Assembly (NCBI GenBank): GCA_017610385.1
Contig: JAFCCC010000002.1
Location: forward strand, 112,424-176,423
From: Candidatus Nanohalarchaeota archaeon
Lineage (GTDB): Archaea; Nanohalarchaeota; Nanosalinia; Nanosalinales; JAFCCC01
DNA length: 64,000 bases
Direction: 5' to 3'
The position numbers and the translations under genes were made by a program. Under the pieces are notes generated by a model that searched no databases, was not told where the DNA came from, and saw only the letters and a program-made list of their open reading frames with translations. Positions 48,193-57,000 of this stretch are shown one piece after another. Position 1 is the first letter of the stretch, and the number at the start of each line of letters is the position of its first letter.

Positions 48193-48593
48193 ATATCAAA
48201 TTAGACGCGAACACCATACGAAGCATTAATGCATTTGAAAGAATTACGGGTGCAGAAGTACGTGATTGCATTATTGAAGGAAATTCTATATATTTTGTAG
48301 TAGAACCAGGAAAGGTTGGTTTAGTTATAGGTAAAAACGGGCGAACAATAAAAAAGGTTCAAGAGACACTCAACAAAAAAGTAAGAGTTTTTGAATATTC
48401 TGAAAAATTAAAGGATTTTGTTAAAAATATTGTCGGTGCATCCATTGAAGACGTTAGGAAGGAAGGAAGTGTCATTTTTATAACTTTTCCAAAAAATAAA
48501 AAACCTTCAATTATTGGTAGAGATGGAAAGAATATAGAACTAATAGTGAGACTATTAAAAAGAAACTTTGGAATTACCCAAGTTAAAATTTAA
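48189..48593 (+). CDS. nusA: Archaeal NusA-like KH protein
   Basis: A 134-residue protein made of two KH domains, each with its GxxG loop: VIGKNGRTIKKVQ and IIGRDGKNIELIV. Archaeal NusA has only the KH part and binds RNA during elongation or termination. It overlaps the rpoA stop by four bases. The usual ribosomal protein L30e gene between rpoA and nusA is not present here. Confidence 0.93.
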   Translation: MNIKLDANTIRSINAFERITGAEVRDCIIEGNSIYFVVEPGKVGLVIGKNGRTIKKVQETLNKKVRVFEYSEKLKDFVKNIVGASIEDVRKEGSVIFITFPKNKKPSIIGRDGKNIELIVRLLKRNFGITQVKI

Positions 48594-49285
48594 TAGCCGC
48601 GTAATTCTACTTTTGGAATATACTTTTCTAAAAGTTTTTTAAATTCTTCTGCAGTTGACTTTGGATATGGGGATTTAAACTTAAAATCTTTATTAAGAGT
48701 TATATCTGGCCTAAACTTTTGTAAAAAATATTTTTTACAACCACTTATTTCTTTACCAATTTGTAAAATATCGTTTCTTGAGATTAATTCTGGTAGAATA
48801 GTGGTTCTGAACTCATAATCAATAGAGGAATGCATAAGAAGGTTAACACTACTCTTTACTTTTTCTATATTCACATTGGTGTTAGCTACTTTATTATAAT
48901 TTTCAAATGGCGCTTTAATATCCATGGAGACAAAATCTATAATTTTATTGTCAAGCAATTTCTTTAGTAATTCTGGATTTGTACCATTCGTATCTAGTTT
49001 CACTAAAAAATGTTGTTTTTTGATTCTTTCGATAAAAGAATAAAGATCTTTTTGAAGAGTTGGTTCACCACCGGTGATTACAACTCCGTCTAAATAATTG
49101 ATTCTAGATTCTAAGAATTTAAAAAACTCTTCTTCTGGAATCTTTGGAATTTTTGATTCTAATACTAATTCTGGATTATGACAATAAGGGCATCTAAAAT
49201 TGCATCCAAATAGAAAAACAATACAACTTAATTGATTTGGGTAATCAATCAAAGAAAGTTTTTGCAATCCTCGAATATCTATCAT
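48590..49285 (-). CDS. nrdG: Anaerobic ribonucleotide reductase activating protein
   Basis: A radical-SAM enzyme that installs the glycyl radical on NrdD. The cluster-binding motif CNFRCPYC (Cys28, Cys32, Cys35) follows FLFGC, and the SAM-binding GGEPTLQ is near residue 78. At 231 residues it is the longer archaeal/pyruvate-formate-lyase-activase-like form. It lies four bases downstream of nrdD on the same strand. Its stop overlaps the convergent end of nusA by four bases, so the rpo operon ends against it. Confidence 0.92.
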   Translation of the reverse strand: MIDIRGLQKLSLIDYPNQLSCIVFLFGCNFRCPYCHNPELVLESKIPKIPEEEFFKFLESRINYLDGVVITGGEPTLQKDLYSFIERIKKQHFLVKLDTNGTNPELLKKLLDNKIIDFVSMDIKAPFENYNKVANTNVNIEKVKSSVNLLMHSSIDYEFRTTILPELISRNDILQIGKEISGCKKYFLQKFRPDITLNKDFKFKSPYPKSTAEEFKKLLEKYIPKVELRGY

Positions 49286-49289
49286 TGTC

Positions 49290-51545
49290 TCAATTATGTT
49301 GCAAACTTTTTATTACGTTATAAACTTTCCGTTCAGAAAATTCCTGCTGTTTTCCGTCATTCCAATCAGAAACTGGACGATAGAAACCTACAACTCTACT
49401 AAATACCTCACAAGGAGCACCACAAACAGAAGTTTGATTACTATTATTGCTCTCGTGCGGACATGTTCTATGTTCACCGTTTATATAACCGTGTTCTGGA
49501 CAAACACTAAAGGTAGGAGACAATGTAAAATAAGGTAATTTAAAGCCATGAGAGATTCTCTTAACTAATTTTTTAGTTGTGTCTAAAGAATCTAAACGCT
49601 CGCCTAAAAATGCATGGAAAACAGTTCCTCCAGTATATTTGGTCTGTAGTTCGTCTTGGTGTTCTAACGCTTCAAAAAGATCATCCGTGGCTCCAACAGG
49701 AAGCTGGGAAGAATTTGTATAATAGGGTGTTTGTTGGGTTCCTGCAGTGTGTATTTTAGGATAGGTTTTTCTATCTAATCTAGCTAATCTGTAAGCAGCA
49801 CCCTCTGCTGGTGTGGCTTCTAAATTATAAATGTGGTTTGTTTCTTCTTGAATTTCAATTAAACGATCTCTCATAAAATTTAAAACTTTCAATGCGAATT
49901 TTCTTCCTGTTGGCGTTGCAATACCTTCATTTAGAAAGTTTTCACAAGATTCATTCATTCCAAGTAAACCAATTGTTGAAAAATGAGTGTTTAAATGCCC
50001 TAAATAACGTTTGGTAAATGGCAAAAGTCCTTGGGCCATGTTTTTTTCAACTTCCTTTCGCTTAATTTCCAAACTGCTCTTAGCTAAATGCATTAAATGT
50101 TCTAGTTTATCAAAATACTCTTGTTCGGTTCTGGCAGTGTATCCAATTTTGGGAAGATTTATTGTTACTACACCAATACTTCCTGTTCTTTCACCAGAAC
50201 CAAATAAACCACCAGTTTTAGCACGTAAATCCTTCAAATTTAACTGCAATCTGCAACACATAGAACGAACATCAGTTGGCTTTAGACTGGAATTTACAAA
50301 ATTTTGGAAATATGGAGTTCCATATTTAGCAGTCATTTTAAATAACAAATCTGTATTTTCATCATTCCAATCAAAATCTTTGGTAATATTATATGTGGGG
50401 ATTGGAAATGTGAAGGTTCTTCCATCAGCGTCTCCTTCTAACATAATTTCACAAAAAGCCTTGTTAAATAAATCCATTTCTTCTTGAAAATCAGCATAGG
50501 TTTCTTTCTGTAGTTTGCCTTTATATATTACAGGCAGATCCTTTAAATCTTCTGGAACTTTCCAATCCAGTGAAACATTAGTAAATGGAGACTGGGCACC
50601 CCATCTGCTTGTCTGATTTATTCCAAAAACAAACATCTGTACTGCTTGCTTTACTGCTTTATAATCTAGTTTGTCATAGTAAATAAATGGGGCCATATAG
50701 GTATCTAAACTTGAAAATGCTTGTGCTCCAGCCCACTCGTTTTGCAAGGTTCCAAAAAAGGTTACAATTTGAGCTAATGCGGGAGATAAATGTGCTGCGG
50801 GTTTTCCGGATACTTTTCCACTAATACCACCGAATCCTTCTCGTAATAGTTGGGAAAGAGACCATCCAGCACAATACCCGCAGAAAGTTCCAGTTTCAGA
50901 ATCATGTAAATGAAAGTCACCTGCTCTATGTGCTTTAGAAATCTCTTTAGGGTAGACATTGTTCAAAACATAATCTCCCATAATTTTTCCGGAAATATGT
51001 GCTCGAAGTCCATTAAAGGAATAATTTAAATTTGCATTTTCTTTTACTTTCCACGCGCTTTTTTTAACATAAGAATCTACTGTTTTTTTAATATTTTCCA
51101 TCAGGGCTTTGGAAGACCTTACTTCAGATCTCTTTTGCCGATATAAAATAAAGCTTTTCGCAGTAATATAATATTCTTCTTTAAGAAGGATCTTTTCAAC
51201 AATATCTTGGATTTGCTCCACTGTTGGGCTTTTTCCATCAAATTTGTTTTCTAATTCATCAATTACTTCTTCACTTAATTTTTCAGCTAAAACTTCATCT
51301 CCTTGACCAGAAGATTTCATGGCTTTTTTTAATACCCTTGTAATTTTTTCTTGCTGGAATGGAACTAATCGACCATCTCTTTTTTCAATATTAATTATAT
51401 TGCTACCTTTTTGAACTTTTTCAAAAGTAGTAAATCTGCGTCCACAATTTAAACAGATTCTTCTTCTTCGATTAGAACTAAGATCTTGTGTTTTTCGTTT
51501 ATCAATAACCCTTGTTTGATCATGTGAACAATATGGACAACGCAA
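49290..51545 (-). CDS. nrdD: NrdR-NrdD fusion: anaerobic ribonucleoside-triphosphate reductase with N-terminal repressor module
   Basis: Class III ribonucleotide reductase, which makes dNTPs without oxygen. The first 145 residues look like a whole NrdR repressor: a zinc ribbon (CPYC at 3-6, CLNC at 31-34) with the DNA-binding arginines (NRRRRICLNCGRRFTTFEKV) and an ATP-cone (about 46-140). The reductase follows, with FCGYCAGWS, MCCRLQLN, a C-terminal zinc-type region (CPEH...CPHE) and the glycyl radical loop SRVVGFYRP. The TTG start at 51545 is chosen because it gives NrdR's normal beginning and has GGGGGGA six bases upstream; a GTG 14 codons earlier would place a putative operator inside the gene. 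Confidence 0.93.
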   Translation of the reverse strand: MRCPYCSHDQTRVIDKRKTQDLSSNRRRRICLNCGRRFTTFEKVQKGSNIINIEKRDGRLVPFQQEKITRVLKKAMKSSGQGDEVLAEKLSEEVIDELENKFDGKSPTVEQIQDIVEKILLKEEYYITAKSFILYRQKRSEVRSSKALMENIKKTVDSYVKKSAWKVKENANLNYSFNGLRAHISGKIMGDYVLNNVYPKEISKAHRAGDFHLHDSETGTFCGYCAGWSLSQLLREGFGGISGKVSGKPAAHLSPALAQIVTFFGTLQNEWAGAQAFSSLDTYMAPFIYYDKLDYKAVKQAVQMFVFGINQTSRWGAQSPFTNVSLDWKVPEDLKDLPVIYKGKLQKETYADFQEEMDLFNKAFCEIMLEGDADGRTFTFPIPTYNITKDFDWNDENTDLLFKMTAKYGTPYFQNFVNSSLKPTDVRSMCCRLQLNLKDLRAKTGGLFGSGERTGSIGVVTINLPKIGYTARTEQEYFDKLEHLMHLAKSSLEIKRKEVEKNMAQGLLPFTKRYLGHLNTHFSTIGLLGMNESCENFLNEGIATPTGRKFALKVLNFMRDRLIEIQEETNHIYNLEATPAEGAAYRLARLDRKTYPKIHTAGTQQTPYYTNSSQLPVGATDDLFEALEHQDELQTKYTGGTVFHAFLGERLDSLDTTKKLVKRISHGFKLPYFTLSPTFSVCPEHGYINGEHRTCPHESNNSNQTSVCGAPCEVFSRVVGFYRPVSDWNDGKQQEFSERKVYNVIKSLQHN

Positions 51546-51552
51546 TAAAATC

Positions 51553-51599
51553 CCCCCACATCTTGTGTGTTTAGTACTAACAAACACAACATCTTGTGT
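51553..51599 (-). promoter_or_regulatory. Two tandem NrdR-box-like sites upstream of nrdD
   Basis: The site at 51584-51599 reads ACACAAGATGTTGTGT on the minus strand, agreeing with the known NrdR box (ACAC-wATATATw-GTGT) at 14 of 16 positions. A weaker copy at 51553-51568 (ACACAAGATGTGGGGG) keeps the left half. They are 31 bases apart, about three helical turns, the spacing typical of NrdR-box pairs. They lie between the TATA box and the chosen start. Confidence 0.75.
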
Positions 51600-51628: not shown

Positions 51629-51639
51629 AATATATAAAA
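51629..51639 (-). promoter_or_regulatory. TATA-like box of nrdD
   Basis: TTTTATATATT on the minus strand lies about 30 bases before the first NrdR-like box. This would place transcription start close to or just ahead of the box pair, so bound repressor could block initiation. Confidence 0.55.
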
Positions 51640-54095: not shown

Positions 54096-57000
54096 ATGGC
54101 AAAATTTACAGTAGAAGATATTCAAAAATTGGCCCAAAACCCAGAAAACATTAGGAACATTGGAAGGCCGAAGAATTATTTAAAAGATTTGAAACGCATG
54201 GGGATATTTTAAAGGAGAATGAAGACGAAAAAATTATCAAAATTGAGAATTCAAACGTATTTGTAAATAGTTTTGATGTGGAATCTGGGAATGTTAAAAG
54301 AGGAAGAATAACACATATTTGGAGAATGAAGAAAACAGATTCTTTGATTGAAGTTTCTGTAGAAAATGGAAGAAAAATCAAAACCACTTCAGAACACAGA
54401 TTTCTAATTTTGTCTAAATCAGGAAAATTTATAGAAAAAAGGGCGGATGATTTGTCTGAGAAAGATGTTTTGGTCTGTGCAAGAAAACTAAATTATTCTG
54501 CATTGACAATTACAGAATTAAAAAACGAATTCCTAAGAACGCTTGGTACAGAGTATAATTTTTATGTTAACTTAAAGAAAGAATTAAAAAATACTATACA
54601 TAAAAAAGTTCTAGGATATGGAAAAGAGGATGTTTGGAAGGATATTAATTCTAAATTAAAAATGGATTCTTTTTATAATGGGGTCTGGAGAGGACAGTAT
54701 AGACTCAAAGATCTGATAAATTTGGCAGATTTTCTAAAGATAGATTTTAATGAAATCTATATGGGAATACTTAGTTTAAATTATCGAGAAGCAAAAAGGA
54801 GGGGTGTGCATTCCTCTATTGCTTTAAAATTACCACATACTTTGCATGATTTTGAGAAGTTGTACTATCTTTCGGGGGTTTTCTTTGGAGATGGAAGCTC
54901 TGGATCAATTTCAAATAAAAGTGAGGAATTACAGCAAAAAATAGAAAAGTTTTGTAAATATTTGGGAATTGATGTAGCTATAAGAAAATATGGTGATAAA
55001 TGCCCTAGAATTGATGTTAAAGGGGGTTTAACTCTTCAAAAAATACTGAATCTTGTTTTTTTATATCCTCTAAAGCAAAAATCGCATAACATTTCAGTAT
55101 CTTCTTTTGTAGAAAAATCTCCGGTTGAATTAATAAAATGTTTTATAAGGGGTTATTTTGATACAGATGGAACTATTGAAAAAGCTAGAAGTGCTGTGTC
55201 TATAACTTCTGTTAGCAAAGAAATGCTAGAGGGTTTGCAACTTCTACTTTACAAATTTGACATTGGTTCTATCATCAATGAAAATAAACAGACTTTGTAT
55301 ATCTCTGGAAGAAGTTCACTTGAAAAGTTTAAAGAAATTGGATTTTCAATTAAGTCTAAAAATAACAGATTTGAAACTCTTTTGAATAAAAGTTCAGTGT
55401 CGAAATTAGAATACATCCCAATAAATGCTGATATTTTAAGGAATGCTAGGAAAAGACTTAATTTAAGCCAAAATCAAATTTTTAATAATTATAGAAACTA
55501 TGAAATAGAAGCTGTTGGGTTGTCTAAAACTTCCTTAAGGAAAATTAAAGATAAAATAAGTGCTTTTGGAGAAGTAAAAGAGTTAAAGCTAATGAATGTT
55601 TTATGTACAGAAGATACTACTTTTTTGAAAGTCAAGACTCTTAAAAAATCATCCAAAGAAGACTATGTTTACGATTTTACAGTTGAAAAATATCACAATT
55701 TTGTTGCAGAAGGGTTTATAATCCACAACACGACACTGACAGATAACCTGTTATTTAGAGCTGGAATGATTTCTGGAGAATTAGCGGGTCATCAATTGTT
55801 TATGGATTATGATCCTCAAGAACAAGAAAGAGGAATTACGATTTATGCGGCCAATGTATCTATGGTTCACGAATTAGATGGGAAAAAATATCTGATTAAT
55901 GTATCTATGGTTCACGAATTAGATGGGAAAAAATATCTGATTAATTTAATTGATACTCCAGGCCATGTAGATTTTGGAGGAGACGTTACAAGAGCTATGA
56001 GAGCGGTTGATGGGGCATTAGTGGTAGTAGACGCAGTAGAAGGTTGCATGCCACAAACAGAGACGGTTCTGAGACAAGCGTTAAAAGAAAAAGTAAAACC
56101 GATTTTATTTGTTAATAAAGTAGATAGATTAATCAAAGAATTAAAATTAAATCCAAAAGAAATGCAAGCGCGTTTTATTGCGGTTATTGAAGAAGTTAAT
56201 AATTTGATAAGAAAAATGGCCACAAAAGACATGAAAGAAAAATGGCTTGTTTCAGTAGAAAATGGATCTGTTGCCTTTGGAACAGGCCTTAGAAATTGGG
56301 CAATTTCTATTCCATTTATGAAAAAGACTGGAATTACATTCAAAGACATTATTGACCTAGTAAATGAAGATAATGAAAAGAAATTGGCAGAAATAGCACC
56401 ATTGCACGAAGTTGTGTTGAATATGGTTATTAAACACCTATTAGATCCAGTTAAAGCACAGGAATATCGTATTCCCCAAATTTGGAAAGGAGATTTAGAG
56501 TCAGAATATGGCAAATCAATGCGCATGTGCGATAAAAACGGAAAACTAGTTGCAGTTGTAACTAATGTTATGACAGATCAACATGCTGGTGTTATTTGTA
56601 CAGCTAGATTGTTCTCAGGAACCATAAAAGAAGGAATGGAATTATATGGCGTTTTATCTCATAAAGAACAAAGATTACAGCAAGTGGGAGTTTATTCTGG
56701 ACCAAGGAAAATGAAAATTGATTCTGTTCCCGCAGGCAACATTGTTGCTTTAACTGGTGTAGATTATTCAACAGGAGAGACTTTAGTTTCAAAGGGAGAA
56801 CACTTAGAACCTTTCGAAAGAATAGAACATATGTTTGAACCAGTTGTTACTAAATCTATAGAGGCTGCTAAAACAGCAGATCTTCCAAAGTTAGTTAAAG
56901 CCTTACGAATAAGAGCAAAGGAAGATTCGACTATCCGAATTAAAATTAATGAAGAAACTGGGGAAACATTGGTTTCTGGTTTAGGTGAATTACATATTGA

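Follow-up and report, generated by a model that had tools for sequence, protein, structure and literature searches.

A NrdR zinc ribbon fused to an archaeal class III ribonucleotide reductase that probably represses its own operon

PutA and BirA are autorepressing enzymes, each shutting its own operon; to our knowledge, no ribonucleotide reductase (RNR) represses its own. In most bacteria, RNR allostery and RNR transcription are handled by two proteins that share an ATP-cone. One is the repressor NrdR, whose tetramers use paired ribbons to grip two boxes; R12, R26-29 and R37 contact the backbone in the S. coelicolor NrdR-DNA structure, while D15 and R17 read the sequence (PMC9110341). DNA binding by NrdR requires ATP plus dATP (PMC9110341), four NrdR proteins need box spacers of 14–17 or 24–27 bp (PMC12051234), and the E. 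coli NrdR boxes are 15 bp apart (PMC12176259). The other is the reductase. P. copri NrdD, an active dimer with ATP, is shifted by dATP towards an inactive tetramer through its cones, and takes two ATP or two dATP, never one of each (PMC11226230). The dATP tetramer is not universal, since S. thermophilus NrdD is dimeric even with dATP (PMC12662201).

We analysed a window of 64,000 nucleotides from a Candidatus Nanohalarchaeota archaeon (contig JAFCCC010000002.1, positions 112,424 to 176,423), in which a single minus-strand gene encodes both a NrdR ribbon and a NrdD. The coding features, in window coordinates, are:

49290..51545, minus strand: fused NrdR ribbon-NrdD gene, TTG start, 751 aa plus stop
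51420..51545, minus strand: NrdR zinc ribbon, residues 1-42 (PF22811, E 2.3e-16; residue list and modelled fold)
51123..51392, minus strand: ATP-cone of NrdD type, residues 52-141 (PF03477, E 3.3e-23; cone tree)
49320..51041, minus strand: NRDD catalytic domain, residues 169-742 (PF13597, E 6.4e-183; alignment and motif positions)
49386..49388, minus strand: glycyl-radical glycine G720 in SRVVGF (motif position)
48590..49285, minus strand: nrdG, radical-SAM activase (PF04055, E 1.9e-23; PF13353)

The open frame extends from 51587 to 49290, with the TTG start at 51545 inside it. By its domain, catalytic residues, glycyl-radical motif and nrdG, the protein is a NrdD. PF13597 scored 609.9 bits, above the curated Pfam cut-off, and the NCBIfam models TIGR02487 and PRK08270 scored 510.6 and 1048.9 against cut-offs of 326.35 and 548; alignment and motif positions showed C225, C430/C431 and N463 intact. 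Because nrdG begins 4 bp past the nrdD stop, we take nrdRD-nrdG to be one operon. The N-terminal cone, catalytic Cys, glycyl-radical motif and adjoining nrdG are shared with the NrdDs of P. copri, S. thermophilus and the PRK08270 branch; unlike those, this protein has a ribbon before its cone, and the promoter of its gene contains NrdR boxes.

The N-terminus (MRCPYC...RRRRICLNC) carries Cys pairs at 3/6 and 31/34 flanking RRRR at 26-29, exactly as the original prediction had it. That prediction also placed a NrdR zinc ribbon and an ATP-cone in the first 145 residues, and Pfam located them at 1-42 (Zn_ribbon_NrdR, 59.9 bits, cut-off 27.2) and 52-141. Every DNA-contact residue of S. coelicolor NrdR (R12, D15, R17, R26-29 and R37) is kept in the fused ribbon at an identical number. 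An AlphaFold model of the N-terminus showed a three-stranded ribbon, a flexible linker (44-46, pLDDT < 50) and then the cone; when residues 1-150 of the model were compared with known structures, as had been proposed, NrdR chains were the closest matches and RNR cones came next. The ribbon might have been a generic NrdD feature, and this we could rule out: in a survey of bacterial and archaeal genomes, just one of the best 80 NrdD loci of 585 confirmed candidates had an in-frame NrdR ribbon.

The original prediction went further, to a reductase carrying the whole repressor module, and here it did not hold. TIGR00244, the equivalog model for full-length NrdR, gave 72.5 bits for the N-terminal part and 67.0 for the whole protein, against a cut-off of 124.65. 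In a tree of 63 cones, four of them from proteins with a ribbon and a NrdD cone, all four fell among the NrdD cones, separated from those of NrdR (starred branch, SH-aLRT 96). A fused whole NrdR is thus ruled out for the window protein; the equivalog miss and the NrdD-grouped cone mean that the enzyme's own sensor acquired only the DNA-binding half of NrdR. We call this architecture, a NrdR ribbon on NrdD's own cone, type alpha. A second architecture, type beta, has a whole NrdR ahead of a second cone and NRDD, and was found in four archaeal genomes (G279, G296, G345 and G393); the one beta protein scanned (G279, locus L068) reached 177.2 bits, above the same equivalog cut-off. Compared with the NrdRs of S. 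coelicolor and E. coli, the window protein has the same ribbon Cys and DNA-contact residues, a cone after the ribbon and a two-box operator with a 15-bp spacer, but its cone is of NrdD type and runs into a 570-residue reductase domain, so that the C-terminal part belonging to the NrdR cone is absent.

The operator, which the original prediction did not contain, lies directly upstream of the gene:

51630..51639, minus strand: TATA-like element TTTTATATAT (from the sequence and archaeal promoter spacing; putative)
51584..51599, minus strand: NrdR box 1, ACACAAGATGTTGTGT, 12/12 consensus positions
51553..51568, minus strand: NrdR box 2, ACACAAGATGTGGGGG, 9/12 consensus positions
51552..51557, minus strand: Shine-Dalgarno-like GGGGGG ahead of the TTG start, overlapping box 2 (from the sequence)

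The boxes are separated by a 15-bp spacer, 31 bp centre to centre, a distance of about three helical turns; such a pair at a RNR promoter is the NrdR arrangement. Apart from box 1, the 788-kb genome contains no perfect ACACAANNNNTTGTGT. The pair scored 21/24, the best pair per simulated 64-kb window scored 17–19 (60 windows), and none of 1000 shuffles of the 150 bp upstream reached it. Judging from the TATA-like element, transcription would start at about 51608, just ahead of box 1, in agreement with the published position of NrdR boxes, which lie upstream of the start site and overlap it (PMC9110341). A GTG at 51587 was considered as an alternative start codon and disfavoured; it lies inside box 1 and adds a 14-residue tail that has no counterpart in ATG-started relatives. 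With all contact residues kept and a two-box operator in the gene's own promoter, the proposal that the module still binds DNA is well supported on sequence grounds.

The same shuffle test (150 bp upstream, 1000 shuffles per locus) was applied to other loci. The alpha fusion of archaeal genome G087 has a 22/24 pair (0/1000). In the bacterial phylum that carries the fusion, boxes are 29 bp apart in L092 and G469 (0/1000 shuffles), and the same palindromes are 19 bp apart in G467 and G468; the difference between these two distances, each seen in two genomes, is about one helical turn. The palindrome pair of this phylum, CTATATATAG, lies about 50–80 bases before the fused start in L276 and L277 and was also seen in L092 and L275. 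Three of the four beta genomes have boxes ahead of the whole-NrdR fusion (shuffles reaching the pair: G345 3/1000, G279 6/1000, G296 18/1000), and the pair of the fourth, G393, was not significant (121/1000). Boxes were absent at the Diapherotrites loci L081 and L085, from genomes with no ribbon (898/1000 and 53/1000), and present (0/1000) at L084, a ribbonless NrdD with a separate NrdR in its genome.

The window genome, 93.5% complete, contains a single NRDD and, within the fused gene, its single NrdR ribbon, and we found no class I/II reductase in it; the fused protein is the sole dNTP-making enzyme and the sole NrdR of its genome. Likewise, a single ribbon was present in each of G087, G279, G296, G345, G393 and G394, and none of them yielded a class I/II reductase. 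In same-order relatives NrdR is separate, and a close NrdD is absent. One of these, G012, has nrdR directly upstream of a class II-like nrdJ (L278:4040-7537). The window lineage seems to have swapped a nrdR-nrdJ pair for the fused class III enzyme.

The archaeal search covered 394 genomes, sampled around the window. The literature describes NrdR as rare among archaea, yet Zn_ribbon_NrdR was above cut-off in 75 of the 394, including most of the window's order; seven of the 75 had fused ribbons (three alpha, four beta). G087 belongs to another archaeal phylum, and is the only genome with a ribbon among 87 of that phylum. The single alpha fusion among the best 80 NrdD loci of 585 candidates was bacterial (L092), and all four genomes examined of its phylum have the fusion. 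The ribbon there is under purifying selection, judged by dN far below dS; between L092 and G467, for example, 19 differences were synonymous and 4 non-synonymous.

In a quick NRDD tree, L092 fell beside Atribacteria, in which nrdR and nrdD are adjacent but separate genes, and the window and G087 fell beside the ribbonless Diapherotrites (L081/L085). These different neighbours make at least two alpha origins likely, together with one beta origin. The position of the window and G087 relative to L081/L085 may reflect either one gain with losses or two gains, since both fit the quick tree; G306 formed a long branch whose placement is unsure. Adjacent nrdR-nrdD operons were seen at L094-L096, L101, L117, L130 and L134 (Atribacteria, Woesearchaeota and Bathyarchaeota). 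They combine the same two functions, with nrdR directly upstream of nrdD, but as two proteins, and with a NrdR that has its own cone; such an operon is a plausible precursor of the fusion. A phage origin was rejected: the phage matches listed start at residue 39 or later and hence lack the ribbon. Among 80 viral contigs, a match extending to residue 1 was seen in L192 alone, with a span too long for a ribbon-cone-NrdD fusion, which suggests adjacent nrdR and nrdD instead. Openly searchable papers on NrdR (2022–2025), NrdD and RNR evolution make no mention of a ribbon-NrdD fusion; as far as those papers go, each half is known, and the combination and self-repression by a reductase are apparently new.

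Since the DNA-binding domain of a repressor sits on the enzyme and matching sites precede its own gene, the enzyme probably turns off that gene when DNA precursors are plentiful. More specifically, we consider it likely that the window protein is a class III RNR repressing its own operon at high dATP. With ATP on the NrdD-type cone, the chain would make dNTPs. As dATP rises, the same cone would become loaded, inhibiting the enzyme and favouring an oligomer with paired N-terminal ribbons, and these ribbons on the two NrdR boxes would turn the nrdRD-nrdG operon off. Domain content, contact residues, box positions and spacing, the single NrdR and reductase and the recurrence of the fusion are read directly; from these we infer DNA binding, repression, its dependence on dATP and the oligomer. 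A dATP-loaded NrdD oligomer of the P. copri kind, if it bore ribbons, could combine inhibition with box binding. The switch cannot equal that of NrdR, because the cone is of RNR type and the nucleotide needs of P. copri NrdD and NrdR differ; by analogy, the logic may be simpler here, two dATP meaning both inactive and repressed. PutA and BirA are likewise metabolic enzymes doubling as own-operon repressors, with unrelated folds and signals.

A degenerate fusion was found in G306 (L070:2721-4631): it keeps the ribbon-cone-NrdD order, its catalytic residues are degenerate, and C225 and the glycyl-radical segment are missing. Its ribbon is the only one of the genome and retains the contact residues. 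No boxes were found upstream of the fused gene; a 21/24 pair (0/1000 shuffles) lies instead ahead of a class I/II reductase gene of G306 (L189:546-591), as expected if the fused ribbon still acts as a repressor. The protein is a candidate pseudo-enzyme repressor. A broader reading, that one NrdD-type cone gives two outputs at once, inhibition being repression, and that the dead reductase of G306 has become the dedicated repressor of another reductase operon, we put forward tentatively, with doubt slightly outweighing belief.

The ribbon might serve without binding DNA, stabilising an inactive form of the enzyme as a structural zinc or oligomerisation module, the boxes being relics or unread. 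NrdR ribbons do pair in building the tetramer, and the fused ribbon could thus work by protein contacts alone; its flexible linker in the AlphaFold model is neutral as proof. We think this unlikely, because base and backbone contact residues are all kept, including the specificity residues D15 and R17, boxes are present with the ribbon and missing in the ribbonless L081 and L085, and G306, devoid of catalysis, has kept the contact residues and has boxes at another reductase gene. Less probable still is that the boxes are read by a separate NrdR, encoded in the unrecovered ~6.5% of the genome, and that the fused ribbon is redundant. Same-order relatives do possess a separate NrdR, but in G087 (99% complete), the beta genomes and the four bacterial genomes the fused ribbon is the only one, and in G012 the separate gene adjoins nrdJ, a class of reductase not found in the window genome.

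An artefact would require either misassembly of a nrdR ribbon onto nrdD or a downstream start that leaves the ribbon unmade. The sequence is apparently a metagenome assembly in 18 contigs, a nearby EF-2 gene seems damaged, and the start codon is TTG. Set against this, the same in-frame architecture recurs in G087 and, with ATG starts, in four bacterial genomes; GGGGGG precedes the TTG, whose context is the same in two other fused archaeal genes; and ribbon codons are conserved. A start downstream of the ribbon, which the original prediction had named as a way for it to fail, finds no ATG between ribbon and cone. We give this explanation hardly any weight. Against self-repression by the fused enzyme, the reading we prefer, count the differing nucleotide needs and the dimeric S. 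thermophilus NrdD described above, the weaker box 2 (9/12 positions), the non-significant pair of G393, and a box distance of 19 bp, two turns rather than three, in half of the four bacterial genomes.

One chain and one cone here seem to serve both levels of control, and the proposed deep link between the cones of NrdR and reductases becomes testable in one protein. In a genome of 0.8 Mb, the locus would also represent a minimal circuit for dNTP homeostasis. It suggests that a NrdR ribbon remains functional when mounted on a foreign cone, a point relevant to the way cones drive DNA binding. NrdR and its boxes are extended to many archaeal genomes.

Two minor observations were made along the way. 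The EF-2 gene near the fusion (window 54096-54330 and 55853-55942) has an N-terminus (AKFTVEDIQKLAQNPENIRNIG) that stops where the GTP-binding P-loop is expected; an intein-like stretch goes on in another frame, and further along NVSMVHELDGKKYLI is encoded twice by a direct duplication of 45 bp. This is either an assembly error or a genuinely damaged copy. Finally, the window NrdD has an expanded zinc loop (CPHESNNSNQTSVCGAPC) and is unsplit, and several other NrdDs are split at the zinc finger (L271:2300-2750 in G087, L272 in G396, L068:3200-3700, L067 and L273). In these, a distinct small ORF directly 3' of nrdD encodes the glycyl-radical C-terminus (..CEVYSRVVGYFRP..); it starts with an ATG and in most cases has a Shine-Dalgarno-like sequence. 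The split was found in two distant NrdD branches, and would give a two-part radical enzyme whose radical subunit is possibly replaceable.
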